The notes under the pieces: model-generated
What the model saw: only the letters and a program-made list of their open reading frames with translations
Told to the model about the DNA's origin: nothing
Database searches by the model: none
From: Croceibacterium segetis
Lineage (GTDB): Bacteria > Pseudomonadota > Alphaproteobacteria > Sphingomonadales > Sphingomonadaceae
NCBI RefSeq assembly: GCF_011320115.1
Contig: NZ_JAANOZ010000017.1
Coordinates: 1 to 48,332 of the forward strand
Length of the DNA: 48,332 bases
Reading direction: 5' to 3'
Position numbers and translations under genes: made by a program
Shown here: one piece after another, positions 19,515 through 41,685 of the stretch
Layout of the letters: every line of letters begins with the position of its first letter
Position numbering within the stretch: position 1 is the first letter of the stretch

Positions 19515-20927
19515 ATGGCTATCGCGCCCACCGCCACCGAAATGGTGGTCGAGGCCCAGAATGCGCAGCCCGGATCGAGCGCGCAGCCGTGGCCCCCCGA
19601 GGGCGCCGGCTGGTTCGCGCTGGCCGCAATCGTCTTCGCGACTTTCGTGACGTTCTTCGACCAGACGGTGTTCGCCATGCTGGCCGAACGGATCAAGGGC
19701 AGCTTCGGCATCTCGGATTCGACGCTCGGCTTCCTGCTCGGACCGGCCAGCGTGATCGCCTACGTGATCGTCGGCATCCCGCTCGCCCGGCTGGTCGACA
19801 TCTACGCCCGCAAGTATGTCCTGGCGGCGGGCATCGCCGTGCTGGGCCTGATCATGGCGCTCGGCGGCATCGCGCAGAATTTCGGCCAGCTGATCGGCAC
19901 GCGGCTGTTCGTCGGGGCATCGAGCTCGGCCAACGGCCCCGGCTCGTACTCCCTCCTGGTCGATGCCTTCCGGCCGATGCGCATCCCGCTCGTCTTCGCC
20001 CTCCTCCAACTCGGCTATATCGGCGGCAGTTCGCTCGGCAACATCATCGGCGGGCAGATGATCGCGTGGACGGCGACCATGCCGGAGACAATCTCGATAC
20101 TCGGGATTCCGGCATTCAACTGGCAGCTGGTGCTGGTGATCATCGGCTCGCTCGGTCTTGTCGCCGGCGGCATCCTCCTCCTGGTCCGCGAGCCGCCGCG
20201 GCGCAGCCCCGCAGGGGCGCACAAGCTGGTGGCCGAGGACACGGGTTTCGGACGCAAGGTCGCGGCGTTCATGGGTTGGGACGCGGCAGTAGCGATCTGG
20301 CAGCGCAAGCAGGTGTTCGTGCCGCTGTTCGCCGCGCTCGCCCTGTCGGCCGTCGAGAGCCAGGGGCTGCCGGCGTGGCGCGTGCCGTTCATCGCCCGCA
20401 CCTATGGCTGGAACGAGGCGGAGATCGGCGGCCTGCTCGGCACTCTGCTGCTGGTCTCGATGCTCGCCGGCATCTTCGTCGGCGGGCTCTTCGTGACCTG
20501 GATGGGCAAGCGCTACAAGGACGCCAACATCCGCGCGACGGCGATCATCTTCGCCTGCACCACGGTGACGACGATATCCGCCCCGCTGATGCCGACCGGC
20601 GAGCTGGCTATCGGGGCGATGGCGCTGGGCACCTTCTTCGGCCTTGCCGGGGCGCCGGCTCAGAATGCGGCGATCCAGCGCATCGCGCCGAACGAAAAGC
20701 GTGGGCAGGTGAGCGCGCTCTACCTGTTCATGTTCACCTTCTTCGGGGCGATGGGCAGCTTCGTCATCGGCTGGGTCAGCACTTACATCGTCGTCGACGA
20801 GAGCCAGGTGTGGAAGGCAATCCTGATCACCGCCGTCATCTTCTTGCCCACTGCCACCTTCTTCATGTTCCGTGGCATTCGGCCCTATCGCGAGGAAGTC
20901 GAGCGGCTGGAGAAGCTCGGCCTCTGA
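19515..20927 (+). CDS. MFS transporter, aromatic or organic acid type
   Basis: This is a 470-residue inner-membrane protein of the major facilitator superfamily with twelve hydrophobic segments. The first helix is at about 35-57 (FALAAIVFATFVTFFDQTVF). The cytoplasmic loop 2-3 has GIPLARLVDIYARKYVLAAG, a variant of the MFS G-x-x-x-D-R/K motif. There is a central charged loop at about 225-260. The start follows GGGAGAGAG by about five bases. It is the first gene of the plus-strand catabolic operon and probably imports its substrate across the inner membrane. The ligand cannot be told from the sequence. Confidence 0.85.
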   Translation: MAIAPTATEMVVEAQNAQPGSSAQPWPPEGAGWFALAAIVFATFVTFFDQTVFAMLAERIKGSFGISDSTLGFLLGPASVIAYVIVGIPLARLVDIYARKYVLAAGIAVLGLIMALGGIAQNFGQLIGTRLFVGASSSANGPGSYSLLVDAFRPMRIPLVFALLQLGYIGGSSLGNIIGGQMIAWTATMPETISILGIPAFNWQLVLVIIGSLGLVAGGILLLVREPPRRSPAGAHKLVAEDTGFGRKVAAFMGWDAAVAIWQRKQVFVPLFAALALSAVESQGLPAWRVPFIARTYGWNEAEIGGLLGTLLLVSMLAGIFVGGLFVTWMGKRYKDANIRATAIIFACTTVTTISAPLMPTGELAIGAMALGTFFGLAGAPAQNAAIQRIAPNEKRGQVSALYLFMFTFFGAMGSFVIGWVSTYIVVDESQVWKAILITAVIFLPTATFFMFRGIRPYREEVERLEKLGL

Positions 20928-20998: not shown

Positions 20999-21778
20999 AT
21001 GTCCGAAGACAAGCTCGCCGCGCTCGAAGCGAAGCTCGAGGCGATGGACAAGCGCCTGCAGCGGCGCGAGGACGAGCTCGACGTGCGCAAGCTGCAGTTC
21101 CTCTATGGTTACCTGATCGACAAATGCATGTACGACCAGGTGATCGAGCTGTTCACCGATGACTGCGAAGTGCGCTTCTTCGGCGGCGTGTGGAAGGGCA
21201 AGGAAGGCGCCCGGCGGCTGTATTGCGAGCGCTTCCGCAAGCGCTTCACGCATGACAACAACGGCCCCGTCGACGGCTTCCTGCTCGACCACCCGCAACT
21301 GCAGGACATCGTCGACATCGAGCCCGACGGCGTCACCGCCAAGATGCGCGCCCGCTCGACGATGCAGGCCGGCCGCCACAAGGACTACACCGACGAGGCC
21401 GCCGGTCTCGGCGTGCGCCAGTGGTGGGAAGGCGGCCTTTACGAGAACACCTACAAGAAGGGCGCCGACGGTAAGTGGCGCATCCACGTGCTCAACTACT
21501 TTCCGCACTGGCACGCCGATTTCGACAAGGGATGGGCTTACACCGATCCCGAGTACACCCCGTTCATTCGCACGACCTACCCGAGCGACCCGGCCGGGCC
21601 CGACGAGCTGATCGAAGATCACTGGCTATGGCCGACGCACAAGCTGCTGCCGTTCCATATGAAGCACCCGATCACCGGCGAGGAGATGGTCGCCCAGCGC
21701 TGGGAAGGCGACAGGAAGCGCGACGAAGAGCGAGCCGCGCGCAACAAGGCCGAAGCCGCGGCGGCGGTGACGGGGTAA
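20999..21778 (+). CDS. SnoaL_4/NTF2-like protein, long form
   Basis: This 259-residue soluble protein starts with a coiled coil (EDKLAALEAKLEAMDKRLQRREDEL, residues 3-27). An NTF2-like domain follows with YGYLIDKCMYDQVIELFTDDCEV and FLLDHPQLQDIVDI. The dyad residues are Asp41 and His98. The C-terminal half carries YPSDPAGPD, WPTHKLLPFHMKHPITGEEM and a charged tail. The same layout and motifs occur in the gene at 40374. ATG 20999 is preferred over the overlapping GTG 20996. It is second in the operon, after the MFS gene, and is probably a catabolic lyase or isomerase. No characterised member is recognised. Confidence 0.75.
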   Translation: MSEDKLAALEAKLEAMDKRLQRREDELDVRKLQFLYGYLIDKCMYDQVIELFTDDCEVRFFGGVWKGKEGARRLYCERFRKRFTHDNNGPVDGFLLDHPQLQDIVDIEPDGVTAKMRARSTMQAGRHKDYTDEAAGLGVRQWWEGGLYENTYKKGADGKWRIHVLNYFPHWHADFDKGWAYTDPEYTPFIRTTYPSDPAGPDELIEDHWLWPTHKLLPFHMKHPITGEEMVAQRWEGDRKRDEERAARNKAEAAAAVTG

Positions 21779-21790
21779 GCGTCTTTACCT

Positions 21791-21830
21791 CGTCATCCCG
21801 GACTTGATCCGGGATGACGCCTCCCTTTTT
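21791..21830 (+). terminator. REP-like hairpin with T-run, candidate terminator
   Basis: CGTCATCCCGGA (21791-21802) pairs perfectly with TCCGGGATGACG (21808-21819) around a CTTGA loop, and a run of five T follows at 21826-21830. The stem sequence matches the common alphaproteobacterial palindrome 'TCATCCCGGACTTGATCCGGGATGA'. It lies between the NTF2-like gene and the aldehyde dehydrogenase gene and may reduce read-through inside the operon. Confidence 0.7.
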
Positions 21831-21890: not shown

Positions 21891-23321
21891 ATGACAAGCT
21901 ACCCCTCCCTGCACATGATCATCGACGGCGAGAAGGTCTCCGGCGGCGGCCGGCGGACCTTCGACGTGGTCAACCCGGTCACCGGCGAGGCGATCGGCGC
22001 GCTGCCGCTGGCCGAGGCCGCCGATCTCGACCGCGCGCTCGAAGTCGCGGCCGAGGGCTTCAGGATCTGGCACAAGTCGACCCCGCAGGAACGCTCGGCC
22101 GTGCTGCAGGGCGCCGCGCGGCTGCTCCACGAACGCGCCGACGACATGGCCCGCATCGCCACCATGGAAGAAGGCAAGCCGTTCCCCGAGGCGCGGCTCG
22201 AGCTGATGATGGTGGTGCACCTGTTCGAGTTCTACGCCGGCGAGGTCTTCCGCCTCTACGGCCGTGAGCTCGTCCGCCCGGTCGGCATGCGCTCGACGGT
22301 GCGCCACGAGCCTGTCGGCCCGGTGGCCGCCTTCGCGCCGTGGAACTTCCCGCTCGGCAACCCGGGGCGCAAGCTCGGCGCGCCGATCGCCGCGGGCTGC
22401 TCGGTCATCATGAAGGCCGCCGAGGAAACCCCGGCGAGCGCGCTTGGGGTGCTCCAGGCCCTGCTCGACGCCGGGCTTCCGAAGCAGGTCGCCCAGGCGG
22501 TCTTCGGCGTGCCCGACGAGGTCAGCCGCCACCTGCTGGCAAGCCCAGTGATCCGCAAGTTGAGCTTCACCGGCAGCACCGTGGTCGGCAAGCACCTCGC
22601 CAAGCTCGCCGCCGACAACATGCTGCGCACCACGATGGAGCTGGGCGGCCACGGCCCGGTTCTGGTGTTCGACGACGTCGACGTCGAGCAGGTCCTGAAC
22701 GTCGCCGTGGCGGGGAAGTACCGCAACGCCGGCCAGGTCTGCGTCAGCCCCACGCGCTTCATCGTCCAGGAAGATGTGTTCGAGCGCTTCCGCGACGGCT
22801 TCGCCGAGCGCGCCAAGGCGGTGAAGGTCGGGGACGGCCTTCTCGATGGCACGCAGATGGGCCCGATGGCCAACAAGCGCCGCCCCGAGGCGATGGACCG
22901 GCTGATCGGCAACGCCAGGGACAAGGACGCGACGCTCAATGCGGGCGGGAGCCGCATCGGCAACCAGGGCTTCTTCTTCCAGCCGACGGTGCTCAGCGAA
23001 GTGCCGCTCGAGGCCGACATCATGCACGAAGAGCCGTTCGGCCCGGTCGCGCTGATCAACCCCTACAAGGGCGAGGACGAGATGATCGCCGAGGCCAACC
23101 GCGTGCCCTACGGCCTGGCGGGCTATGCCTGGACCAACGACGTCAAGCGCCAGCGGCGCCTCGCCGATGCGATCGAGACCGGCATGGTCGGCATCAACAG
23201 CCACATGATCGGCGGCGCCGACAGCCCGTTCGGCGGCGTCAAGTGGTCGGGCCACGGCAGCGAGGACGGGCCCGAAGGCGTGCTCGCATGCATGGTGACA
23301 AAAGCAGTTCACGAAGGATGA
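21891..23321 (+). CDS. NAD(P)-dependent aldehyde dehydrogenase (succinate-semialdehyde dehydrogenase type)
   Basis: The 476-residue ALDH-superfamily enzyme oxidises an aldehyde to the acid. Catalytic residues are visible: Asn152 (FAPWNFPLGNP), Lys175 (IMKAAEETP), Glu250 (MELGGHGPVLVFDD) and Cys284 (GQVCVSPTRF). The best-known relatives are GabD-type and benzaldehyde-type dehydrogenases. The start is ATG 21891; the upstream in-frame extension overlaps the REP hairpin and is rejected. It precedes the LigW-like gene by two bases. The ThDP decarboxylase later in the operon would supply an aryl aldehyde as substrate, which is an inference from context. Confidence 0.88.
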   Translation: MTSYPSLHMIIDGEKVSGGGRRTFDVVNPVTGEAIGALPLAEAADLDRALEVAAEGFRIWHKSTPQERSAVLQGAARLLHERADDMARIATMEEGKPFPEARLELMMVVHLFEFYAGEVFRLYGRELVRPVGMRSTVRHEPVGPVAAFAPWNFPLGNPGRKLGAPIAAGCSVIMKAAEETPASALGVLQALLDAGLPKQVAQAVFGVPDEVSRHLLASPVIRKLSFTGSTVVGKHLAKLAADNMLRTTMELGGHGPVLVFDDVDVEQVLNVAVAGKYRNAGQVCVSPTRFIVQEDVFERFRDGFAERAKAVKVGDGLLDGTQMGPMANKRRPEAMDRLIGNARDKDATLNAGGSRIGNQGFFFQPTVLSEVPLEADIMHEEPFGPVALINPYKGEDEMIAEANRVPYGLAGYAWTNDVKRQRRLADAIETGMVGINSHMIGGADSPFGGVKWSGHGSEDGPEGVLACMVTKAVHEG

Positions 23322-23323
23322 CG

Positions 23324-24379
23324 ATGACCCACGAACTCAAGACCGGCGGTGACCGCGGCTACCTGCGCATCGCCACGGAAGAAGCGTTTGCCACCCAGCA
23401 GCAGTTCGACGCGATCATGCGGCTGATCAAGGAAGGCCGCGCCGACAAGGGGACCCAAAGCCTGTGGGGCTTCTACGGCACGTCCCCAAGCGAACGGACG
23501 ACGTTCATCCGCGAGCGCCTGCTCGACCTCGGCGAACTGCGCATCCAGGCGATGGACGACACCGGCATCGACAAGGCGGTGCTGGCGATGACCAGCCCGG
23601 GCACGCAAACGCTGTTCGACGTCGAAGAAGCGCGCGAGATCGCCCGCGACGGCAACGACCAGCTCAAGGCCGCGTGCGAAAAATATCCCGACCGCTTTTA
23701 CGGCATGGCCGCGGTCGCCCCGATCGACCCCGAATGGTCGGCGGGCGAGCTGCGCCGCGCGAAGGAAGAGCTCGGCTTCCACGGCGTGCAGATCAACAGT
23801 CACACTCACGGTCACTATCTCGACGAGCCGCAGTTCGACCCGATCCTGCGCGCCTGCGCCGATCTCGACCTGCCGCTATACATCCACCCGCAGGGCCTGC
23901 CCGACGACATGATCGGCGACATGGTCGGCGTCGGGCTCGACGGGGCGATCTTCGGTTTCGCGGTCGAGGTCAGCTATCACGCGATGCGCCTGCTCACGAC
24001 CGGCGTGTTCGACCGCTATCCAAACCTTCAGCTGATGCTCGGACACGGCTGCGAGGGGCTGCCGCACATGCTCTACCGGCTCGACTACATGCACAAGGCG
24101 GGCCTCCGGAGCGGACGTTACCCGCGCCTCAAGCCGCTGCAGCACGACCTGTTCCATTACTTCCGCAACAACGTGCTCGCGACCAACAGCGGCCTGCCGT
24201 TCGGCCCGGCGATCAAGACGATGATCGAGGTCATGGGCGAGGACCGCGTGATGTACGCGATGGACTATCCCTACCAATACGTGCCCGACGAGGTCCGCTG
24301 GATGGACGATCTCGAGATCCCGTTCGAGCAAAAGAAGAAGTTTTTCCAGACAAACGCCGAGCGCTGGTTCAAGCTGTAA
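23324..24379 (+). CDS. LigW-like metal-dependent aromatic carboxylate decarboxylase (amidohydrolase family)
   Basis: This 351-residue amidohydrolase-2 enzyme is closest in motif to 5-carboxyvanillate and gamma-resorcylate decarboxylases, which remove a ring carboxylate ortho to hydroxyl using Mn or Zn. The metal ligands fall at Glu19 (IATEEAF), His188 (YIHPQG), His241 (LGHGCEG) and Asp314 (YAMDYPYQ). Arg58, Thr90, Phe212 and Arg252 also match positions I recall for the Novosphingobium LigW active site. Start ATG 23324 has GAAGG upstream, and an overlapping ATG 23318 is also possible. No ligX, ligZ or ligY is nearby, so the natural substrate may not be 5-carboxyvanillate. Confidence 0.8.
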   Translation: MTHELKTGGDRGYLRIATEEAFATQQQFDAIMRLIKEGRADKGTQSLWGFYGTSPSERTTFIRERLLDLGELRIQAMDDTGIDKAVLAMTSPGTQTLFDVEEAREIARDGNDQLKAACEKYPDRFYGMAAVAPIDPEWSAGELRRAKEELGFHGVQINSHTHGHYLDEPQFDPILRACADLDLPLYIHPQGLPDDMIGDMVGVGLDGAIFGFAVEVSYHAMRLLTTGVFDRYPNLQLMLGHGCEGLPHMLYRLDYMHKAGLRSGRYPRLKPLQHDLFHYFRNNVLATNSGLPFGPAIKTMIEVMGEDRVMYAMDYPYQYVPDEVRWMDDLEIPFEQKKKFFQTNAERWFKL

Positions 24380-24403
24380 GGCGATTCCCAAGGGAGAGAG
24401 ACG

Positions 24404-25258
24404 ATGACGACCTATGCGGTGACCGGCGCGACGGGCAAGCTCGGCCGGCTGGTGCTCGACGAGATGCTGGAGAAGGTTTCGCCCGGCGATATCGTGGCCC
24501 TGGCGCGCGACCCGGCGGCGCTGTCCGACTACGCGATGAAGGGCGTGCAGGTCCGCCAGGCCGACTACGACGATCCGGCGAGCCTCGACGCGGCGCTCAA
24601 GGGAGTCGACCGGGTACTGCTGATCAGCGGCAACGCCGTCGGCCAGCGCGGCCGGCAACACGGTAACGTGATCGAGGCGGCGAAGAAGAACGGCGTGAGC
24701 TATCTTGCCTACACCTCGATTCTCAACGCCCGGAACTCCAGGCTGGCGCTCGCGCCGGAGCACAAGGAGACCGAGGAAATTCTCGAGAAGGCCGGGATCA
24801 ACCACGACGTGCTGCGGATGCCGTGGTACTCCGACAACTACGTCGGCGGCCTCGCCCCGGCGATCGAGCAGGGGGCGATCTACGGCGCCGCCGGTAACGG
24901 CCGCTTCTCAACCGCGAGCCGCGCCGATCTCGCCGCCGGAGCCGCGGCCGCGCTGGTGAACGGCCAGGGCGGTGACATCTACGAGCTCGCGGGCGACCAG
25001 AGCTGGACGATGGACGACTTCGCCGCCGAGGTCAGCAAGCACTCGGGAAAGCCGGTGAAGTACGTCAACCAGAGCGAAGCCGACTTCGCCAAGACGCTCG
25101 AAGGCGCGGGCCTGCCGCCGCCGATCGCGGCGATGCTGGCGAGCACGAGTTACCTCGCCGGCCACGGCGAGCTGTACAACGATGAGCGCCAGCTGAGCCG
25201 TCTTTCGGGACGGCCGACGACGCCCATCGGCGAGAGCATCAGGCAGGCGTTGGGATGA
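24404..25258 (+). CDS. NmrA/QorB-like NAD(P)H-dependent oxidoreductase
   Basis: The 284-residue atypical SDR has an N-terminal Rossmann fold with VTGATGKLGRLVLDEML (residues 6-22), ALARDPAAL and QADYDDPASLDAAL. It also shows YLAYTSILNARNS and LRMPWYSDNYVG. This is the QorB quinone-oxidoreductase branch, which binds NADPH but lacks the classical Tyr-x-x-x-Lys pair. It could reduce quinone-type intermediates from ring oxidation in the cytoplasm. Translation starts 24 bases after the LigW-like stop with GGGAGAGAG upstream, so it is in the same operon. The specific substrate is unknown. Confidence 0.8.
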   Translation: MTTYAVTGATGKLGRLVLDEMLEKVSPGDIVALARDPAALSDYAMKGVQVRQADYDDPASLDAALKGVDRVLLISGNAVGQRGRQHGNVIEAAKKNGVSYLAYTSILNARNSRLALAPEHKETEEILEKAGINHDVLRMPWYSDNYVGGLAPAIEQGAIYGAAGNGRFSTASRADLAAGAAAALVNGQGGDIYELAGDQSWTMDDFAAEVSKHSGKPVKYVNQSEADFAKTLEGAGLPPPIAAMLASTSYLAGHGELYNDERQLSRLSGRPTTPIGESIRQALG

Positions 25259-25261
25259 TCC

Positions 25262-25282
25262 AATCCTCCCCGCCCGGGGAGG
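25262..25282 (+). promoter_or_regulatory. Inter-gene hairpin before the second MFS gene
   Basis: CCTCCCC and GGGGAGG flank GCCC and form a 7-bp stem shortly upstream of the GGGAGAGGGAGAG ribosome site of the MFS gene at 25304. The C-rich arm could alternatively pair with that ribosome site. No T-run follows, so it is not a clear terminator. Confidence 0.3.
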
Positions 25283-25303
25283 TCCTTGGGAGAGGGAGAG
25301 ACA

Positions 25304-26926
25304 ATGGCTACGATCGCCGAGCAAGCGCCGCCGCAATCGGACCGCGTCAGCCGCGCCGGATGGTACGCGCTCACGCTGGTCGCCTCGGCGCAGGGCCTGA
25401 GCCTCCTCGACCGGCAGATCCTTTCGATCCTCGCGCCGTCGATCAAGGCCGACCTGCACATCGGCGATTCCGAGCTCGGCCTGCTCTACGGCACCGTTTT
25501 CTCGCTGTTCTACGCTCTGTTCTCCCTGCCGCTCGGGCGGCTGGTCGACGGCTGGATCCGCACGCGACTGCTTTCGATCTGCATCTTCGCCTGGTCGATC
25601 TTCGCCGGTCTATCGGCTTTCGCCGGCGGCTTCACGCTGCTGGCGATTTCGCGCCTCGGCGTCGGCATCGGCGAGGCGGCTGCGCAGCCTTCGGCTAACT
25701 CGATCATCTTCGACACTTTCCCCCGCTCCAGGCGCGGCACGGCGATGGCATCGATGGGCATCGCCACCGCGCTCGGGCTCGGGCTGTCGATGACGCTCGG
25801 CGGAGTGGTCGCGGGCTGGTTCGACGCACGTTTCCCACAAGGCGCGGCCGGCTTCTCCGGCTGGCAGTTCGCTTTCCTCGTCGCCGCGTTGCCCGGACTG
25901 CTGCTCGCCTGGCTCATTTCGCGCCTGCCCGAGCCGGTCCGCGGCGGGGTCGACGGCATTCGCTCGCCCGAAGATCCGCACCCGTTCAGGGCCAGCGGCG
26001 CGGTGCTCGCCTCGGTCACGCCGGGGATCAACTGGGTCTCGCTGTGGAGCCGCAAGGCGCCGCCACGGCAGTGGGCGATCAACCTGATCGGCCTCGCGGC
26101 CATCGCTCTGTTCTGCTGGATCATGACCCAGCTCACCCAGGCGTTTTCCCCACGTCCGCCGACGGACGTGCTCGGCGCGAAAATCGACCCGCATGTGCTG
26201 CAATGGTCGGTGGTCGGCTTCGGCGCGTTCGTGATCCTCAACATGTTCCAGTCGCTGCGGCTGACCGACCGGGCGAGCTACAACGTCATCGCGTCTCCTT
26301 CGGTGATCCTGCTGATTGTCGTCGCCGGGCTGCAGACCTCGATCAACTACGGGGTGATGGGCTTCACGCCCTCGCTGCTCAACCGCTCCTTCGGGCTCTC
26401 GCAGGCGCAGACCGGCCTGCAGTTCGGCCTGCTCTCTGCCGGACTGGCGATGGTCGGGCCGATCGTGGCGGGGCCGCTGTCGGACTGGCTGACGGCACGC
26501 ATGGGCGGCCGCGGCCGGGTGTGGCTGACGATCTTCTCGCTCGGTATCTCGCCGCTGTTCGGCATATGGACCTACAGCGCGCAGGACCTGACGAGCTTCT
26601 ACCTGCGCTTCAGCGTGTTCAGTCTGATCCTGACGCTGTGGCTGCCGCCGCTCTATTCGCTGCTCTACGATCTCGTGTTGCCGCGGATGCGCGGGGTGAC
26701 CAGCTCGATCTTCATCATCATCACCACCCTGCTCGGGCTCGGCATGGGGCCGTACTTCGTCGGCATCGTCTCCGACCGCAACGGCGGCGACCTGGCCCAG
26801 GCGATCATCTCGATCAACGTCGTGTGGCTGCCGATCCTCGCCTGCCTGTTCATCGTCCTGTGGCGGGTCAACCGCGACGAGACGACCGTGCTCGACCGCG
26901 CCCGCGCCGGAGGAGAACCGATCTAG
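25304..26926 (+). CDS. MFS transporter with long central loop
   Basis: This 540-residue major facilitator has an N-terminal half with YALTLVASAQGLSLLDRQIL, GRLVDGWIRTRLLSIC (the loop 2-3 motif) and ISRLGVGIGEAAAQPSANSI. The central region between helices 6 and 7 is unusually long (about residues 200-300) and includes an additional hydrophobic segment. The C-terminal half has AGPLSDWLTARMGGRGRVW. Family relatives move organic acids, hexuronates or aromatic acids with protons. The stop codon overlaps the GTG start of the ThDP decarboxylase, indicating coupling. It is the second MFS protein of the operon, perhaps for a different intermediate or for efflux. Confidence 0.85.
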   Translation: MATIAEQAPPQSDRVSRAGWYALTLVASAQGLSLLDRQILSILAPSIKADLHIGDSELGLLYGTVFSLFYALFSLPLGRLVDGWIRTRLLSICIFAWSIFAGLSAFAGGFTLLAISRLGVGIGEAAAQPSANSIIFDTFPRSRRGTAMASMGIATALGLGLSMTLGGVVAGWFDARFPQGAAGFSGWQFAFLVAALPGLLLAWLISRLPEPVRGGVDGIRSPEDPHPFRASGAVLASVTPGINWVSLWSRKAPPRQWAINLIGLAAIALFCWIMTQLTQAFSPRPPTDVLGAKIDPHVLQWSVVGFGAFVILNMFQSLRLTDRASYNVIASPSVILLIVVAGLQTSINYGVMGFTPSLLNRSFGLSQAQTGLQFGLLSAGLAMVGPIVAGPLSDWLTARMGGRGRVWLTIFSLGISPLFGIWTYSAQDLTSFYLRFSVFSLILTLWLPPLYSLLYDLVLPRMRGVTSSIFIIITTLLGLGMGPYFVGIVSDRNGGDLAQAIISINVVWLPILACLFIVLWRVNRDETTVLDRARAGGEPI

Positions 26927-28482
26927 TGCCCACCGTCCGTGAAGCCGCCTTTGCCGTGTTCGAGCATTTCGGCGTCGACAAACTGTTCGGCAATCCGGGC
27001 AGCACCGAGATCCCGATGCTTCGCGCGCTCCCCGTGCCCTACGTCATGGGGCTCAACGAGGCGGTGGTGGTGGCGATGGCCGACGGCTACTCGCGCGCTT
27101 CGGGCAAGCCGGCGCTGGTCAACCTGCATAGCGCGGCGGGCACCGGGCATTCGCTCGGGAACCTGTTCACAGCCTTCCGCAACTGCGCCCCGGTAGTGGT
27201 CACCGCCGGCCAGCAGGCGCGCTCGATCCTGCCGTTCGACCCGTTCCTCTACAACGAGCGTGCCGCCGAATTTCCGCGACCGTACGTGAAATACTCGATC
27301 GAGCCGGCACGCGCCGAGGACGTGCCGCTGGCGCTGATCCGGGCCTTCGTCACCGCGCTGACTCCGCCGATGGGGCCTTGCTACGTCTCGATCCCCGTCG
27401 ACGACTGGGACCGCGAATGCGAGATGCCCGCGCTGCCCGAGCTGACGCTGGAGACCGTGCCCTCCGCAACCGGCATCGAGCGGCTTGCCGCGTTGCTCGA
27501 CGGGGCCGAACGGCCTGCGCTGGTGATCGGCACCGGCGTCGCCAATTCCGGCGGCTGGGAGTGTGCGATCCGGCTGGCCGAAAAGGCCGGCTGCGCGGTG
27601 TGGGCCGCGCCTTACGCCGCGCGCGAGACGTTTCCCGAAGACCACCCGCAGTTCGCCGGCTTCCTCCCGGCCTGGCGCGACCAGCTGCGCGGCCTGTTGG
27701 CTCCGTACGACGCGATCCTCGTCGCCGGGGCGCCGGTGTTCACCTGGCACGTCGAGGGCAGCGGACCACACTTTCCCGAGCATGCCAAGCTGATGGTCCT
27801 CAGCGACGATCCGCAGCACCTCGCCGCGCTGCCCGGCGGCGGGGGCGTGCTCGGCAATGTCGCCGAAGGCCTCGCGCTGCTGTGCGAGCGGGCCAACAAC
27901 CGCGCCTACACCGGCAAGTCGCGCACTTTCGCCGATCCCGAGCCGGCGATGACCGCGGCCTACGTCCTCAAGCGCGTGGCCGCGCTCCGGCCCGCAAACG
28001 CTGTGACCGTCGAGGAAGCCCCCACGGCGCGGGGCCCTGAGCACGAGGTCATGCCGATCGTCCGCGAGGGCGGGTTCTACACCTGCGCCAGCGGCGGCCT
28101 CGGTTACTCGCTCCCGGCCGCGGTAGGAGTAGCGCTCGGCCAGAACGACAAGGTGATCGCCGTGCTCGGCGACGGCGCGGCGATGTACACCATCCAGGGC
28201 CTGTTCTCGGCGGTCGCCGAGAACGCTGATGTCAGCTTCCTGATCCTCAACAACGCCGCCTATGCCGCGCTAACCGGATTCTCCTCCGAGTTTGGGATGA
28301 ACCACGTGCCGGGCTGCGACTTGTCGGGGCTGGAATTCGTCAAGCTCGCCGAGGGGCACGGGGTCACGGCAAAGCGCGTCGATTCCGTCGAGGAGCTCGA
28401 CGAAGCGCTAGCGTGGAGCTTCGCGGCGAAGGGCCCGACCCTGCTCGACCTGAGGATCGAGTACGCGGTCCACAAGCACTAG
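26926..28482 (+). CDS. mdlC: Benzoylformate decarboxylase-like ThDP enzyme
   Basis: The 518-residue ThDP-dependent decarboxylase is predicted to convert an aryl glyoxylate to an aryl aldehyde and CO2. Catalytic residues of Pseudomonas benzoylformate decarboxylase are conserved: Ser26 in GNPGSTEIP, Glu45 in GLNEAVVV, His68 in NLHSAAGTGH and His275 in VFTWHVEGSG. The ThDP-binding motif runs GDGAAMYTI...LILNNAAY. GTG 26926 is the start: it overlaps the stop of the MFS gene (TAGTG) and GGAGGAGA lies upstream. A longer open frame exists through the MFS gene but is a shadow. The ring substituents of the substrate are not known. Confidence 0.85.
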   Translation: MPTVREAAFAVFEHFGVDKLFGNPGSTEIPMLRALPVPYVMGLNEAVVVAMADGYSRASGKPALVNLHSAAGTGHSLGNLFTAFRNCAPVVVTAGQQARSILPFDPFLYNERAAEFPRPYVKYSIEPARAEDVPLALIRAFVTALTPPMGPCYVSIPVDDWDRECEMPALPELTLETVPSATGIERLAALLDGAERPALVIGTGVANSGGWECAIRLAEKAGCAVWAAPYAARETFPEDHPQFAGFLPAWRDQLRGLLAPYDAILVAGAPVFTWHVEGSGPHFPEHAKLMVLSDDPQHLAALPGGGGVLGNVAEGLALLCERANNRAYTGKSRTFADPEPAMTAAYVLKRVAALRPANAVTVEEAPTARGPEHEVMPIVREGGFYTCASGGLGYSLPAAVGVALGQNDKVIAVLGDGAAMYTIQGLFSAVAENADVSFLILNNAAYAALTGFSSEFGMNHVPGCDLSGLEFVKLAEGHGVTAKRVDSVEELDEALAWSFAAKGPTLLDLRIEYAVHKH

Positions 28483-28925
28483 CCCTCGAAGCGCGCCAGC
28501 ACCTCGCCGCTCCAGCCCATGATCGCCTTGGCGGCGATCTTCCACTGGCCGCCTTCCCTGGCGACCACGTCGCGAATGTGGCCGCACCAGTGGAGGTAGG
28601 GATGCGCGGGCGGGCGGTTGATCGTCGCCCAGGCATAGCTGCGGACGATCCAGCGATCCGGTCCGTCGGCTTCGAACACCAGTTGCGCCATCTGGTGCTG
28701 GTGGCCGGGAAAGTCTGGCCGCTCGTGGAACTTGAGCACCAGCTTGCGAATCTCCTCGCGCCCCTTGCGTACCTCGAGCTCGCCGCTCGCGGTTTCCTCG
28801 GTCGCTTCGGCGTCCTCGGTGAACAGCGCGCAATAGCCGTCGGTGTCGCCGGTATCGAGCGCCCAGCAGTAACGCGCGTAAAGCTCGCGGATCGCCAGCT
28901 CGTCTTCGACCGGGGGACGGGTCAT
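28479..28925 (-). CDS. SnoaL_4/NTF2-like protein
   Basis: This 148-residue protein has the SnoaL_4 opening DELAIRELYARYCWALDTGD and YCALFTEDAEATEE, with the dyad Asp24 and His77 (in GHQHQMA). WKIAAKAIMGWSGEVLARFEG closes the fold. It is the last gene of the minus-strand operon. Its start overlaps the stop of the upstream MFS gene by four bases (ATGA), and its stop overlaps the stop of the facing mdlC-like gene. It probably acts on the same catabolic intermediates as the other NTF2-like proteins; the reaction is unknown. Confidence 0.8.
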   Translation of the reverse strand: MTRPPVEDELAIRELYARYCWALDTGDTDGYCALFTEDAEATEETASGELEVRKGREEIRKLVLKFHERPDFPGHQHQMAQLVFEADGPDRWIVRSYAWATINRPPAHPYLHWCGHIRDVVAREGGQWKIAAKAIMGWSGEVLARFEG

Positions 28926-30163
28926 GCGGGAACTCCTTGCAAAGCGGCGCGCCGGGCGACGACGCGGGGCGCGGTCTCGCGCAGGAACAGCGCGGTCAGG
29001 CCGCCGAACAGGGCGAGACCCATCAGCAGCCACAGCGGCGCCTGCAGGCCATAGATATCGGAGAGCTTGCCGGCGAGCGAGGGCGACAGCACCCCGCCGA
29101 GGATCTCGCCCAGGCCCATGACGATCCCGATCGCCGTCGCCGCCTGCCGCGGGCTGACGGACTCGGTCGGCACGGTGGCCATGAACATCGGGAAGATGCC
29201 GTTGAACAGCCAGCCGACGAAGAAGATCGTCCCCATCGTCAGCGCCGAGCCGTGGAAGGTCATCACCCCAAGCGGCAGCAGCACGCCCACGAAAGTGGAA
29301 ACGGCCATCACCGGCCGCCGCCCCACGTAGTCGGAGATGCCCGGCACCAGGAACGCCGCGATCGCAGAGGACACGCCGAGCACCGCCATCAGCCACGCCG
29401 CGGTGTCCGGATCGTAGCCGCGCAGCTGGACGAGGATCAGCGGCATGAACGCCCAGGTCACCACCAGGTAGCTGACCAGCAGCACCGCCATCACCGCGCA
29501 GGCGATCACATTGCGGTTCGCGAGCGTTTCGAGCAGCGGCGCACGGTCGCCCGCATTGCGCACCTCGGGCTTGGGCAGCGGCCGCTCGATCACGAACAGC
29601 GCGACCAACCCGCACGAGATCAGCCCCGGCACGGCGGCGAGGAAGAATCCGCTGCGCCAGCCCCAGGCAAGCGCGATCGGCGTCAGCACCAGCGGCGCGA
29701 CGGTCGAGCCGAGCAGGCTCGAACCGAGGTTCTGGGCAATGCCCATTGCGACCCCGCGCCGCTCGGGCGTGACCTCGGCGGCGACCATCGCATGGCTGAT
29801 CGGCATCACCCCGCCTTCGCTGAGGCCCATCAGCAGCCGCGCGCCGAGCAGCATCAGGAACCCGGTCGCCAAGCCCGACGCCACCGAGCACAGCGAGAAC
29901 ACCAGCGTCGAGACGACGATGATCACCTTGCGCCGCGCCACCTTGTCCGACAGCCAGCCGACGAAGATCGCCGCCAGCGCCCAGGTGAACGACAGCGCCG
30001 AACCGAGCAGGCCGACCTCCGTATAGCTCAGCCCGAGGTCCGGCTGAATGAACGGCATCAGGAAGTTGAGCGCGTTGCGGTCGAAGAACAGGATGCCGAA
30101 GTTGAGGCACAACAGCGTCACCAGCAGCACCTGGTACGCGCGTGTCGATCGTCCTGCCGTCAT
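28922..30163 (-). CDS. MFS transporter (ACS-like)
   Basis: This 413-residue major facilitator has twelve hydrophobic segments and the anion/cation symporter style: NFGILFFDRNALNFLMPF in helix 1, IFVGWLSDKVARRKVII as the loop 2-3 motif, and RLLMGLSEGGVMPISHAMVA in helix 4. Late TVPTESVSPRQAATAIGIVMGLGEILGG is typical of aromatic-acid and glucarate transporters. It lies in the minus-strand operon between the exported-family paralogues and the last NTF2-like gene. It is the third MFS protein of the island and probably brings an organic acid into the cytoplasm. Confidence 0.85.
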   Translation of the reverse strand: MTAGRSTRAYQVLLVTLLCLNFGILFFDRNALNFLMPFIQPDLGLSYTEVGLLGSALSFTWALAAIFVGWLSDKVARRKVIIVVSTLVFSLCSVASGLATGFLMLLGARLLMGLSEGGVMPISHAMVAAEVTPERRGVAMGIAQNLGSSLLGSTVAPLVLTPIALAWGWRSGFFLAAVPGLISCGLVALFVIERPLPKPEVRNAGDRAPLLETLANRNVIACAVMAVLLVSYLVVTWAFMPLILVQLRGYDPDTAAWLMAVLGVSSAIAAFLVPGISDYVGRRPVMAVSTFVGVLLPLGVMTFHGSALTMGTIFFVGWLFNGIFPMFMATVPTESVSPRQAATAIGIVMGLGEILGGVLSPSLAGKLSDIYGLQAPLWLLMGLALFGGLTALFLRETAPRVVARRAALQGVPA

Positions 30164-32406: not shown

Positions 32407-32868
32407 TCACATCACTCGCCAGACCCACAGCTTGATGCTGCTGGCATAGCGGGCCCCGGCGCAGACGAAGATCGACTTGTTGAGCCAGTCGTAGGGGCCG
32501 TCGGGGGCGATGAACTCGGGCACGGTGCGGAAGTAGTATTCGGACGGATCGACGTCCTCGCCGCGGCGCAGCCGGTCCATGACTTCTGCCGGGCCGTGGC
32601 GGAGGCCCTTGTTGCGGATCTGGATCAGCGCGCCGTCGTCGGTCTCGATCGCGTAGATCGCGTCGGCCACTGTCACCCCGTCGGGCCGAGTGAGCTGCCA
32701 GTCGGCCGAGTTGCCCATCAGCTGGCCGCTGATCTTCGGACCCTTCACGTAGCCGCCGCTCTTGATCGCGATGATCCGCCGCGCGCCGTCGTAGACCGGC
32801 CCGATCTCGCGCGGCGCTTCGAGCTCGCCGCCGGCTTCGTAGACGAATTCCAGCTCCGGCTTGATCAT
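32407..32868 (-). CDS. DUF3237 family protein
   Basis: The 153-residue protein matches DUF3237. It has GARRIIAIKSGGYVKGPKISGQLMGNSADW, DAIYAIETDDGALIQIRNKGLRHGP, and EYYFRTVPEFIAPDGPYDWLNKSIFVCAGAR. No signal peptide is seen, so it is cytoplasmic although its neighbours are exported. Most members have no known role. From memory, two Sphingobium DUF3237 proteins (PhcF, PhcG) decarboxylate a lignin-derived phenylcoumaran acid, giving a precedent for a decarboxylase here. Its start overlaps the stop of paralogue 3 (ATGA) and the gene lies inside the operon of exported-family paralogues. Confidence 0.85.
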   Translation of the reverse strand: MIKPELEFVYEAGGELEAPREIGPVYDGARRIIAIKSGGYVKGPKISGQLMGNSADWQLTRPDGVTVADAIYAIETDDGALIQIRNKGLRHGPAEVMDRLRRGEDVDPSEYYFRTVPEFIAPDGPYDWLNKSIFVCAGARYASSIKLWVWRVM

Positions 32869-34113: not shown

Positions 34114-35772
34114 ATGGCGGCGGACCTTTACGCGGACTACGTGATCGTCGGCGCGGGCAGCGCGGGCTGCGTGCTGGCGGCGCGGCTGACCGAGAGCGGC
34201 GAGCACAAGGTGGTGCTGCTCGAAGCCGGCGGCGACGACCGGCCGCTGAAAGAGCCGAGCCAGATCTGGTCGAACCTGATGATCCACACCCCGATCGGCT
34301 TCGGCAAGACGCTCAACGATCCCAAGGTCAACTGGCTCTACGAGACCGAGGTCGATGCCGGCACCGGGAACCGGGCGCACAAGTGGCCCAAGGGCAAGGT
34401 GCTCGGCGGCTCGAGCTCGATCAACGGCCTGCTCTACGTGCGCGGCCAGTCTGCGGACTACGACAACTGGGCGCAGATGGGCGCGCGCGGATGGAGCTGG
34501 GACGAGGTCCTGCCTTACTTCAAGAAGGCGCAGAACCAGGAACGTGGGCCGATCGACACCCACGGCGTCGGCGGCCCGCTCAACGTGTGCGACTTCCCCG
34601 AAAAGCACCTCGTCTCCGCCGCGCTGATCGAGGCCTGCCAGGAAGCCGGCATTCCCTATCGCGAGGACCTCAACAACGGCGACCAGGAAGGCTGCACCTG
34701 GTTCCAGATGACCGCCAAGAACGGCAAGCGCCACTCGGCCGCGGTTGCCTACCTGCACCCGGCGATGAACCGGCCCAACCTGCAGGTCGAGCTGCGGGCA
34801 ATGACCACGAAGATCCTGTTCGAGGGCAAGAAGGCCGTGGGCATCGAGTTCATGCAGAACGGCGAGAAGCGCAAGGTCATGGTCGCGCGCGAAGTGATCC
34901 TCGCCGCCGGCTCGGTCGAAAGCCCCAAGCTGCTCGAGATCAGCGGGATCGGCCAGGGCGCGCTGCTGCAGGAGCTCGGCGTGCCGGTGATCCACGAGAG
35001 CAAGATGGTCGGCGAGAACATGCAGGACCACGTCATGATCGGCTGCCAGGCGCGCCTCAAGGAGGACTGGCACTCGATCAACCACCGCGCGACCGGGCTG
35101 AATCTCATCAAGGAGATCGCCAAGTACGGCATCAGCAAGACCGGCATCCTCAGCATGGCGGTGGCCCACGGCTGCGCCTTCGTGAAGAGCCGCAAGGAGC
35201 TCGAGCATCCCGACGTGCAGATCCACATGATGGCCGCGTCGATGGACCTTCAGGTGCTCGCCACCACCCAGGCCCTGCAGCTCGAAAAGGAGCCGGGGCT
35301 CGCCAGCAACCCCTGCCAGCTGCGCCCGGAATCGCGCGGCTCGATCCATGCCAGGTCGCCCGACGGCATGGTCGCGCCGAAGATCGTGCCGAACTACCTC
35401 AGCGACCCGATCGACCAGGAGATGGCGGTCACCCAGCTCAAGATCATCCGCAACATCTGGCAGCAGCCGGCGCTCGAGCCATACATGGCGGCCAAGGGCG
35501 ACCCGTTCGGCGACAACGATCAACAGATGTTCGAATACGCCAAGATCGCCAGCGGCACCGTCTACCACCCGGTCGGCACCGTCGCGATGGGCGACGAGCG
35601 CTATCCGGTGACGCCCGACCTCAAGGTCCGCGGGGTCGAAGGCCTGCGGGTGATCGACGCCAGCGTGTTCCCCAAGATCACCAGCGGCAACACCAACGCC
35701 CCGACGATCATGATCGCCGAGAAGGGCGCCGAGATGGTGCTGGCGGAAGCGAAGGAAGCGGTGGCGGTTTGA
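34114..35772 (+). CDS. GMC-family FAD oxidoreductase (choline dehydrogenase-like)
   Basis: The 552-residue flavoprotein oxidises an alcohol to an aldehyde or further. The dinucleotide motif is VIVGAGSAGCVLAARL (residues 10-25), followed by LLEAGGDD. The GMC signature 1 is KWPKGKVLGGSSSINGLLYVRG and signature 2 is REVILAAGSVESPKLLEISGIG. The catalytic pair is His485 (VYHPVGTVAMG) and Asn528 (GNTNAPTIMIAEKGA). AGGAG lies seven bases before ATG. It has no signal peptide. It is divergent from the operon carrying DUF3237. Oxidation of an aryl side-chain alcohol, as with sphingomonad PhcC/PhcD enzymes, is an attractive but unproven role. Confidence 0.88.
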   Translation: MAADLYADYVIVGAGSAGCVLAARLTESGEHKVVLLEAGGDDRPLKEPSQIWSNLMIHTPIGFGKTLNDPKVNWLYETEVDAGTGNRAHKWPKGKVLGGSSSINGLLYVRGQSADYDNWAQMGARGWSWDEVLPYFKKAQNQERGPIDTHGVGGPLNVCDFPEKHLVSAALIEACQEAGIPYREDLNNGDQEGCTWFQMTAKNGKRHSAAVAYLHPAMNRPNLQVELRAMTTKILFEGKKAVGIEFMQNGEKRKVMVAREVILAAGSVESPKLLEISGIGQGALLQELGVPVIHESKMVGENMQDHVMIGCQARLKEDWHSINHRATGLNLIKEIAKYGISKTGILSMAVAHGCAFVKSRKELEHPDVQIHMMAASMDLQVLATTQALQLEKEPGLASNPCQLRPESRGSIHARSPDGMVAPKIVPNYLSDPIDQEMAVTQLKIIRNIWQQPALEPYMAAKGDPFGDNDQQMFEYAKIASGTVYHPVGTVAMGDERYPVTPDLKVRGVEGLRVIDASVFPKITSGNTNAPTIMIAEKGAEMVLAEAKEAVAV

Positions 35773-35924: not shown

Positions 35925-37721
35925 ATGCACACTACAGTTCGACTGGTCGCTTCTGCGACCTTCATCCTGTTGGCGGCGTGTGGCAGTGGCGGAGGCGTCC
36001 AGAGCACGCCCCCACCGATCCCGACTCCCGCGCCAACTCCAACTCCAACTCCAACTCCGACTCCAACTCCCACGAACGCGCTGATTTCGGACCTCAAGGC
36101 TGATCAAACATTTACAGGTGAAGCCAGCACCACAAACGTCACGCTGACCTTGCCCGACGGCATCGTGCAATCGAATGCGCAATCACGCGATGCCATTTCA
36201 GTCGACTTCGACGCCTCGTCCCAGACGTATACAGTCACGACGGACGGGCGCAGTGCGTCGTTCGGGCCCGCCGAAAGCCAGACGCCGCGTTATGACGGGG
36301 AACAGGCCTGGTCCCGCTCGGACTCCACGGGAAGCGAACACCTCACGCTTGTTACCAATCCCTATTTTGGGTCCCAATATGCGAACAAATACGTGGGCAT
36401 GGGCTATTGGCAGCGCAACGCGCTGACGGCAGGCGTCCAGCAAACCTATTTCGACACCTTCACGTACGGCTTCAACACCGCGGCCGCCAATGTGCCGCGC
36501 ACCGGCGCAGCGCACTGGCTGACCGATGTATTTGGGCTGCTCTCGATTCCCGGAGTCGAGCTCAAGGTCGTCCAGGGATCGGGAGATTTCCAGGTTGATT
36601 TCGCCGATGGTACTTTCCAGACCCTGGCATATCTCAACGAAGGCAACGTCGTGACCGATGGGGGTGCCAGCGGCGCGTTACGGTTCGACGGCGGGGGATC
36701 ACTGAATTCGACTGGCGGATTTGCTGGGTTGTTCTCCTATGTTTCCCCAAGTGCTCGATTGAACGGCGCGATCGGGGGTTCATTCTATGGCCCGAGCGGC
36801 GATGAAATCGGGGGTACCTTCAACGGAAGCGGCAATGGCGCGACATTGACCGGTGCTTTTACCGGCCAGAAATTCGATGTGGGCGCAACTAGCGATGGAA
36901 TCCCCAACATCAGCCTGACCAACCTGCTCACCCCGCAGCGCCTGTCTGGGCCGTCGATCACGTTCTTCTATCGGCAGAGCAGCACTCCCGGGTTCGAAAA
37001 TCTCGTTCGGGGCCAATCAGAAGGACAGGTTTCAATCGAACCGGACGGAGTTAAGTCGCTGAATTTCAACAACGGCAGCTACACTCTTGTTCCCAGTGAT
37101 ATTGACACGGTCGGTCCGGCCAATTTTTCGACTTACCGCTCGACGTTCAATGGCGAGCCATTGACGGTATCACTATACAAGACAGGATCCGCCAATGGCG
37201 AATTGGCCCTGACCTACGCGAGTTTTGTCGACTGGCGATCGAGCGAGCCGACCACGCTGCCGTCCGGAGACGCCGCGACCAATTATTATCACCAATATTT
37301 GGTCTACGGATTTGAAACTCCGACGGGGATCATCGCGGCTCGTACGGGTAGCGCGACCTATTCCGGAGTTGTCTACGGAGCGGGAGCAGCACCGGACGGA
37401 CGTGCTTTCAACGTGAGCGGGTCCTCATTCTTCGACGTTCGGTTTGATGCCGACACCTATAGCGGCTGGATGCAGCTCCTTGGCAACGAATCAAATGGCA
37501 CAGTAACCGACTTTGGCCGCTGGACTTTCTCCGGCGCGGCGAACAACAGCATGGTCAGCGCGCCGTTGATCGGACCCGGAGCATTCGATCCTGGCAGCGC
37601 GATCTATCCTCGCTTCTACGGACCGACAGGACAGGAGATTGGTGCGACTTTCTGGTTGAAGACCACTCCGGCCCTCGATCCTTCCGGGGTTCAAATAGTC
37701 GGCGCAACCCTCGCCAAGTAG
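35925..37721 (+). CDS. TbpB-like beta-barrel surface lipoprotein
   Basis: The 598-residue protein is a predicted outer-membrane lipoprotein. The signal peptide ends in the lipobox LAAC, with Cys19 as the acylated residue. A low-complexity linker of Pro-Thr repeats at about 27-50 would reach away from the membrane. Two C-lobe-like segments contain the transferrin-binding-protein barrel hallmark: FYGPSGDEIGGTF near 284 and FYGPTGQEIGATF near 561. Proteins of this group bind metal carriers or haem and are moved to the surface by Slam proteins. The next gene, two bases away, is a Slam homologue. GC and codon bias are lower than in the flanking catabolic genes, so transfer is likely. The ligand is unknown. 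Confidence 0.78.
   Translation: MHTTVRLVASATFILLAACGSGGGVQSTPPPIPTPAPTPTPTPTPTPTPTNALISDLKADQTFTGEASTTNVTLTLPDGIVQSNAQSRDAISVDFDASSQTYTVTTDGRSASFGPAESQTPRYDGEQAWSRSDSTGSEHLTLVTNPYFGSQYANKYVGMGYWQRNALTAGVQQTYFDTFTYGFNTAAANVPRTGAAHWLTDVFGLLSIPGVELKVVQGSGDFQVDFADGTFQTLAYLNEGNVVTDGGASGALRFDGGGSLNSTGGFAGLFSYVSPSARLNGAIGGSFYGPSGDEIGGTFNGSGNGATLTGAFTGQKFDVGATSDGIPNISLTNLLTPQRLSGPSITFFYRQSSTPGFENLVRGQSEGQVSIEPDGVKSLNFNNGSYTLVPSDIDTVGPANFSTYRSTFNGEPLTVSLYKTGSANGELALTYASFVDWRSSEPTTLPSGDAATNYYHQYLVYGFETPTGIIAARTGSATYSGVVYGAGAAPDGRAFNVSGSSFFDVRFDADTYSGWMQLLGNESNGTVTDFGRWTFSGAANNSMVSAPLIGPGAFDPGSAIYPRFYGPTGQEIGATFWLKTTPALDPSGVQIVGATLAK
36010..36072 (+). repeat. Hexanucleotide tandem repeat encoding a Pro-Thr linker
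   Basis: About ten near-perfect copies of a six-base unit (ACTCCA and variants ACTCCC, ACTCCG) follow one another and encode the PTPTPT linker after the lipobox of the TbpB-like lipoprotein. Copy-number change would alter linker length in units of two residues without a frameshift. Confidence 0.75.
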
Positions 37722-37723
37722 TC

Positions 37724-41603: not shown

Positions 41604-41636
41604 ATTGCAACGATCGTTAATGTATGCACAGCATAC
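41604..41636. promoter_or_regulatory. Shared operator module of the first TonB receptor
   Basis: The module contains the palindrome AACGATCGTT (41609-41618), the spacer AAT, and the inverted repeat GTATG-N5-CATAC (41622-41636). The same order and spacing recur at 44366-44398 upstream of the second receptor, with 23 consecutive bases identical. It lies about 50 bases before the ATG at 41686. Probably a binding site of a shared regulator. Confidence 0.6.
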
Positions 41637-41685
41637 CAACGCCGCCGACTCCCCCAGATGGCGGCTCCCAGACTTGGAGAGATCA

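Follow-up and report, generated by a model that had tools for sequence, protein, structure and literature searches.

A benzoylformate decarboxylase-type gene in a putative beta-5 lignin-dimer cluster of Croceibacterium segetis

Genes for the breakdown of beta-5-linked lignin dimers have been described in Novosphingobium aromaticivorans: PcfL (Saro_0796, 44% identical to LdpA), FerD (Saro_0797), LigW (Saro_0799) and LsdD (Saro_0802) (PMC11323797). PcfL releases formaldehyde, FerD is a 5-formylferulate dehydrogenase that also oxidizes vanillin, and LigW converts 5-carboxyferulate to ferulate by decarboxylation; an oxidation-decarboxylation route was predicted to be common in Erythrobacteraceae other than Novosphingobium (PMC11323797). 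Decarboxylases of the benzoylformate decarboxylase (BFD) type are known from other systems. The bzf cluster of Pseudomonas LLC-1 and Pf-5 encodes a BFD-type enzyme together with a transporter of the major facilitator superfamily (MFS) and an aldehyde dehydrogenase (ALDH) (PMC7760541). In Rhodococcus jostii RHA1, a BFD converts 4-hydroxy-3-methoxybenzoylformate to vanillin and acts along with a vanillin dehydrogenase (PMC9811514). Here, we describe a stretch of 48,332 nucleotides from Croceibacterium segetis (contig C9 of the assembly), called the window in the following, in which genes resembling pcfL, ferD and ligW stand close to a gene for a thiamine diphosphate (ThDP)-dependent enzyme of the BFD type. 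Judged from its sequence, the window probably carries a cluster for the beta-5 (phenylcoumaran) dimer dehydrodiconiferyl alcohol with an added aryl-alpha-keto-acid decarboxylase; this judgement takes together the two positions, para and ortho to the phenolic hydroxyl, that the keto acid may have on the ring.

The gene run and the described beta-5 cluster

Five genes form one tight run on the forward strand, with distances of 2, 24, 45 and -1 bases between them (taking the transporter from the ATG at 25304). The run begins with a FerD-like ALDH (21891-23321; PF00171), followed by a LigW-like ring decarboxylase of the 5-carboxyvanillate/5-carboxyferulate type (23324-24379; PF04909, Amidohydro_2), a QorB/NmrA-like NAD(P)-binding protein (24404-25258; PF13460 and PF05368), an MFS transporter (25304-26926; PF07690), here MFS 2, and the ThDP enzyme (26926-28482), whose start codon overlaps the stop codon of MFS 2. 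The best match of the LigW-like protein in the PDB is 4inf, a 5-carboxyvanillate decarboxylase that we take to be the N. aromaticivorans enzyme (64% identity over 351 residues, E 1.8e-152). None of the 25 NCBIfam families listed for the ALDH is matched above its cut-off. The original prediction had named these families from the letters alone, and the family searches bear it out, as does inspection of the catalytic residues, all of which are found where it had placed them: Ser26, Glu45, His68 and His275 in the ThDP enzyme, Asn152, Glu250 and Cys284 in the ALDH, and Glu19, His188, His241 and Asp314 in the LigW-like protein as numbered from the ATG at 23324 (counting from the in-frame ATG at 23318 moves the latter by two). 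It had also placed two MFS transporters between 21891 and 28482; one lies there, and another, MFS 1 (19515-20927, forward strand; MFS_1, PF07690), lies upstream on the same strand.

What decides the interpretation is a gene that the original prediction did not include. A SnoaL/NTF2-type protein (20999-21778, forward strand; SnoaL_4) matches PDB entries 8abv (E 1.4e-48) and 8abt (E 1.7e-47), which we assume to be the diarylpropane lyase LdpA, and is a candidate PcfL-like gamma-formaldehyde lyase. With this gene included, the block has the pcfL-ferD-ligW order published for Saro_0796, Saro_0797 and Saro_0799 (PMC11323797). A 12-pair hairpin with a T-rich tail (21791-21819, forward strand), present as a single exact copy in the genome, is a possible terminator between the pcfL-like and ferD-like genes and may divide two transcription units; a scan for promoters and terminators gave sites no more common than in shuffled sequence (2 against a mean of 1.3, and 7 against 9.2).

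A related cluster (L167) allows comparison gene by gene. Its genome, G438, falls with G396 in genus group g96 and has a LigW 91% identical to 4inf, so that by LigW it is a near relative of N. aromaticivorans. The order is mfs1-pcfL-ferD-ligW-mfs2, followed by DUF3237 and lsdD genes on the opposite strand, and the corresponding proteins of the window are 57, 67, 79, 65 and 54% identical to mfs1, pcfL, ferD, ligW and mfs2; the comparison behind the FerD-like label is this 79% match to the L167 ALDH. Both clusters have MFS genes on either side and a DUF3237 gene nearby. Compared with the published N. aromaticivorans cluster (PMC11323797), the window has additional ThDP, QorB/NmrA-like and GMC oxidoreductase genes. 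The LsdD-type dioxygenase of the C. segetis genome is encoded on another contig (C40, L131) and is 79% identical to that of L167. Beside it are a regulator that passes the cut-off of the NCBIfam "Saro_0803 family", an MFS transporter of the aromatic-acid type, a class III alcohol dehydrogenase (glutathione-dependent formaldehyde dehydrogenase) and an S-formylglutathione hydrolase, and the contig also encodes LigA- and LigB-type proteins. Altogether, the genome has six genes of the RPE65 (carotenoid/lignostilbene oxygenase) family, on contigs C2, C39, C40 and C41.

It had been proposed that the ThDP enzyme, the ALDH and the ring decarboxylase act in series, from ArCOCOOH via ArCHO and ArCOOH to ArH, and that no described pathway was known to join the three. 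By homology, the FerD-like and LigW-like steps (from ArCHO via ArCOOH to ArH, at ring C5) are already published chemistry of FerD and LigW (PMC11323797), and a ThDP enzyme feeding an ALDH has precedent; that the product of the ThDP enzyme is a FerD substrate on its way to LigW is the hypothetical part. Our literature search, which did not extend to supplementary files and reached few subscription papers, agrees with the second statement in that it turned up no paper on a beta-5 cluster with a ThDP enzyme. Two of the three steps are nevertheless in print, and what is new is the presence of the ThDP gene in such a cluster.

The ThDP enzyme and its distribution

The ThDP protein scores 634.5 bits against the NCBIfam model for benzoylformate decarboxylase (NF005485; cut-off 493), and the next family reaches 222 bits. 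Its predicted structure superimposes on BFD structures with a TM score of about 0.90 (Foldseek), and the nearest structures (50 listed) include the 4-hydroxybenzoylformate decarboxylases 6qsi (Pf-5) and 7orx (RHA1). The model has a pLDDT below 50 at residues 98-109 and 275-277, where by alignment pocket and active-site positions lie; no pocket can therefore be read from it, and it confirms the family only. In P. putida numbering, the BFD residues Ser26, Glu47, His70 and His281 are invariant in all 58 aligned rows of close relatives (loci fetched twice included), as are Leu110, Ala460, Leu461 and Phe464. Position 377 is Pro in 56 of the 58 rows and position 397 is Thr or Ser in 57.

A relative of the ThDP protein (E 1e-80) is found in 23 of 197 related genomes. 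Among 397 genomes of the family, LigW (1e-100) occurs in 50, the ThDP protein (1e-80) in 56 and both in 48 (Fisher's exact test, 7e-51); the two sets were taken as one draw, being of equal size and with the same handles, and the non-matching genomes are listed only in part. Counted by genus, 16 have both, 2 only LigW, 6 only the ThDP protein and 72 neither (p 1.5e-11). The ThDP gene lies within 8 kb of ligW in 32 of the 48 genomes with both, and here the relatives fall into two tiers. At 65% or more identity to the ThDP protein there are 34 genomes, 31 of them with LigW, each time at most 8 kb away. The distant tier, at 44-52% identity, comprises 22 genomes. Seventeen of them encode LigW, G395 alone within 8 kb of the ThDP gene; at this locus (L191), the 50% identical ThDP gene is close to genes for LigW and an LSD-type dioxygenase and lies outside the clade of close relatives. 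Outside the family, G161 encodes a 51% identical ThDP protein and a 61% identical LigW about 47 kb apart. The close ThDP proteins form one clade of 43 rows in a quick tree of 69 (SH-aLRT 100, stem length 0.89), which was built after some rows had been dropped and has long branches outside this clade. The clade is mostly from Erythrobacteraceae with some Novosphingobium (L086, for example).

The surroundings of the ThDP gene were compared in 42 loci with at least 60% ThDP identity. As neighbors we found ALDH in 39, LigW in 38, MFS 2 in 35, DUF3237 in 33, LsdD and MFS 1 in 30 each, PcfL in 19, QorB in 17, GMC in 13, a vanillyl-alcohol-oxidase-like flavoprotein in 9 and an O-methyltransferase in 6; these counts are by tblastn and are lower bounds, as no locus extends more than 10 kb to either side and some are truncated by contig ends. 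Two loci without ALDH and LigW (L069, L071) are cut in this way. Gene calls were based on open reading frames with a GC3 filter, and some genes were missed or mis-called, such as the ALDH in L078, L081 and L184. Many loci share the flanking genes of the window (pbp, msrB, gst). The gene trio is thus conserved in relatives with recurring synteny, and a chance assembly of three unrelated enzymes was rejected on the ALDH and LigW counts. ALDH and LigW are equally constant beside the ThDP gene in this common context, and the ThDP-bearing form of the cluster is widespread in Erythrobacteraceae and is also seen in some Novosphingobium. In some relatives, a gene for a flavoprotein resembling vanillyl-alcohol oxidase/eugenol oxidase separates ferD from ligW, which is followed by one for an O-methyltransferase (L039, 8379-9944; L064, 3784-5349 and 6404-7417).

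The ThDP gene can also do without ligW. A search at E 1e-20 found no LigW in G049, the genome of Aurantiacibacter luteus (G476) or the metagenome-assembled Novosphingobium genome G475 (of unstated completeness), all of which have a close ThDP protein; this argues against an obligate series. G263 and G292 do not appear among the genomes with LigW in the 397-genome search (G292 and A. luteus G476 appear to be one genome, as do G396 and Novosphingobium arvoryzae G477, which have the same LigW coordinates). In A. luteus, a FerD-like ALDH (72%) still adjoins the ThDP gene. In G049 and G263, the ThDP gene is accompanied by a different ALDH (39-40% identical to that of the window) and an MFS transporter of the aromatic-acid type, with no ligW near; this transporter shares 66-69% identity with the LsdD-side transporter of C. 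segetis, and its best NCBIfam match (scanned for G263) is the aromatic acid/H+ symport family, below the model cut-off. Locus L083 encodes a 70% homologue of the same LsdD-side transporter, and a GCV_T-domain protein that presumably resembles O-demethylases.

Genes flanking the run

Downstream of the ThDP gene and convergent to it are genes for a SnoaL-like protein (28482-28922, reverse strand; SnoaL_4) and MFS transporter 3 (28922-30163, reverse strand; PF07690), both with homologues near lsdD in L066, L075 and L079. A match of this SnoaL-like protein to SgcJ/EcaC, at 35.1 bits against a cut-off of 33.95, was not used. Further on are a gene for a DUF3237 protein (32407-32868, reverse strand; PF11578), 3.9 kb from the ThDP gene, and one for a GMC oxidoreductase (34114-35772, forward strand; PF00732 and PF05199), 5.6 kb from it, of which homologues with at least 61% identity are found in 29 of 52 genomes. 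Both fit the oxidation-decarboxylation route predicted for Erythrobacteraceae (PMC11323797). They recall, at the level of the family, PhcC/PhcD (GMC enzymes, according to a reference title) and the DUF3237-type PhcF/PhcG of Sphingobium SYK-6; the assignment of PhcF/PhcG goes via PinX, a protein with a DUF3237 domain that shares 42% identity with PhcG and 38% with PhcF (PMC12607616).

Three predicted proteins on the reverse strand between 30253 and 33941 have signal-like N-termini (by eye) and are 58-59% identical to each other; a Pfam search gave no match for them, and homologues of one or two are found in several related clusters. The stretch 35925-39037 has a gene for a TbpB-barrel-like lipoprotein that contains a long Pro-Thr tract, next to a surface lipoprotein assembly modifier (SLAM) gene; two TonB receptors (41605-44229 and 44450-46882) are encoded further on.

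Possible functions of the ThDP enzyme

By homology and synteny, the FerD-like ALDH would oxidize the 5-formyl group left on ferulate by stilbene cleavage, and LigW would take off the resulting 5-carboxylate; both are known steps. The ThDP gene product is most likely an aryl-glyoxylate decarboxylase that feeds the FerD-like ALDH. It would decarboxylate a phenolic aryl glyoxylate, an aryl-C2 lignin remnant, to an aromatic aldehyde, and this aldehyde would also be oxidized by the FerD-like ALDH. This assignment is favored by the BFD neighbors in sequence and fold and by the precedents of the bzf cluster and RHA1. Like the window, the bzf cluster (BFD, MFS, ALDH, porin, LysR) combines a ThDP decarboxylase of this family with an ALDH and an MFS transporter; the window differs in having LigW and PcfL in addition, its ThDP enzyme is 37-38% identical to that of Pf-5 in a structural alignment, and a scan of 20 genes at 14-36 kb gave neither an OprD porin nor a LysR regulator. 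The aryl-C2 pathway of RHA1 (glycolate oxidase, BFD, vdh) likewise has a BFD followed by oxidation of an aromatic aldehyde, but no LigW is mentioned for it in the available text (PMC9811514). In the mandelate pathway (mdlABCD), the MdlC and MdlD steps are similar. Four PF01070 matches (FMN-dependent mandelate dehydrogenase/glycolate oxidase) are present in the genome, on contigs C23 and C1 and none on the window contig, and the mandelate pathway was rejected for lack of such a dehydrogenase on this contig; the racemase was not searched by family.

Several observations weigh against a beta-5 cluster with an added decarboxylase of this kind. The cluster of G438 (L167) has no ThDP gene, and the only ThDP relative found in that genome, 50% identical, is encoded next to Rieske oxygenase genes at a distance of about 486 kb from ligW. 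The LigW genomes G029 and G078 have no ThDP protein at 1e-80. The tests of co-occurrence ignore kinship and lifestyle, and common ancestry together with a shared habit of degrading aromatics may lie behind their outcome. In the window enzyme, Thr377 and Phe397 of P. putida BFD correspond to Pro366 and Thr386, and the substrate specificity may therefore differ from benzoylformate; the reference used, 4mpp, is the quadruple mutant H281Y/T377P/F397T/A460I, and the wild-type residues at these positions were taken from PDB titles. Finally, the words "thiamine" and "benzoylformate" appear nowhere in the available text of the beta-5 paper (PMC11323797); "thiamine" is also absent from what is available of the pinoresinol paper (PMC12607616) and a 2026 review (PMC12997858). 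Loci L185-L188 have a 49-51% identical ThDP relative beside a gene that in L185 encodes the alpha subunit of a Rieske ring-hydroxylating oxygenase. This other aromatic operon also includes, in L185, genes for the Rieske beta subunit and a protein resembling ketopantoate reductase, and a gene that is LysR-like by eye.

If the ThDP enzyme is an aryl-glyoxylate decarboxylase, the position of the glyoxylate decides how far the three enzymes work together. With the glyoxylate para to the phenolic hydroxyl, as in vanilloylformate, LigW would not be in series, and a bzf-like aryl-C2 module of BFD, ALDH and MFS transporter would simply share the operon. We regard this as a possibility to be taken seriously, short of being probable. 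It is consistent with the composition of the bzf clusters and the RHA1 precedent, with the activity of FerD toward vanillin, with the ThDP gene of G049 and G263, grouped with another ALDH and a symporter-like MFS gene away from any ligW, and with A. luteus, which retains ALDH and ThDP genes without LigW. Taken alone, however, it leaves unexplained why the close clade is in near-constant company of LigW (31 of 34 genomes, and almost as many of the 42 loci as have the ALDH).

With the glyoxylate ortho to the hydroxyl, at C5, all three enzymes would act in series on one two-carbon remnant, which we consider rather doubtful. LigW-type substrates carry the carboxylate ortho to the hydroxyl, consistent with C5. 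In the corresponding route, itself unlikely, the gamma carbon of the phenylcoumaran would be oxidized by the GMC enzyme and kept, and cleavage between the alpha and beta carbons would give 5-oxalylferulate, which the ThDP enzyme would convert to 5-formylferulate, FerD to 5-carboxyferulate and LigW to ferulate, with loss of two CO2 and without formaldehyde. The last two steps are the published FerD and LigW reactions (PMC11323797), and the proximity of the ThDP gene to ligW, at most 8 kb for 31 of the 34 genomes that have a close ThDP protein, fits a series. As this route predicts, a GMC gene of the cluster type is present in 23 of 31 LigW genomes with a close ThDP protein and in 6 of 19 others (Fisher's exact test, 0.007), but this association is confounded by lineage: in genus group g15, all five genomes have the close ThDP protein and none the GMC gene, and in g76 all three have the GMC gene and none the close ThDP protein. 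Also against it are the genomes that keep the ThDP gene without LigW, and the fact that we know of no enzyme that makes 5-oxalylferulate; a literature search for lignostilbene together with arylglyoxylate found no paper. The series further predicts that the ThDP enzyme substitutes for PcfL, which was not seen (PcfL in 13 of 31 genomes with a close ThDP protein and in 10 of 19 without; p 0.56). There is a small chance that the series is a previously undescribed branch of phenylcoumaran catabolism.

A different function, carboligation, in which the ThDP enzyme would use the formaldehyde released by PcfL or join aldehydes, is very improbable. Formolase variants of P. putida BFD do exist (PDB titles 6m2z, 8xbo), and formaldehyde is indeed set free by PcfL (PMC11323797). 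But the ThDP enzyme retains the natural BFD signature, the C. segetis genome encodes a formaldehyde dehydrogenase and an S-formylglutathione hydrolase beside LsdD, and PcfL, at a threshold of 64% identity, is missing from 18 of the 31 LigW genomes with a close ThDP protein.

A beta-5 cluster with an added aryl-alpha-keto-acid decarboxylase would place a conserved, clade-specific enzyme among the characterized core enzymes of a lignin-dimer cluster, so that its function is directly testable. If the ThDP enzyme serves aryl glyoxylates, aryl-C2 and beta-5 catabolism would be linked, which bears on efforts to convert lignin streams to single products. Action of the enzyme at C5 would mean a further route for the gamma carbon of phenylcoumarans, beside release as formaldehyde and decarboxylation.

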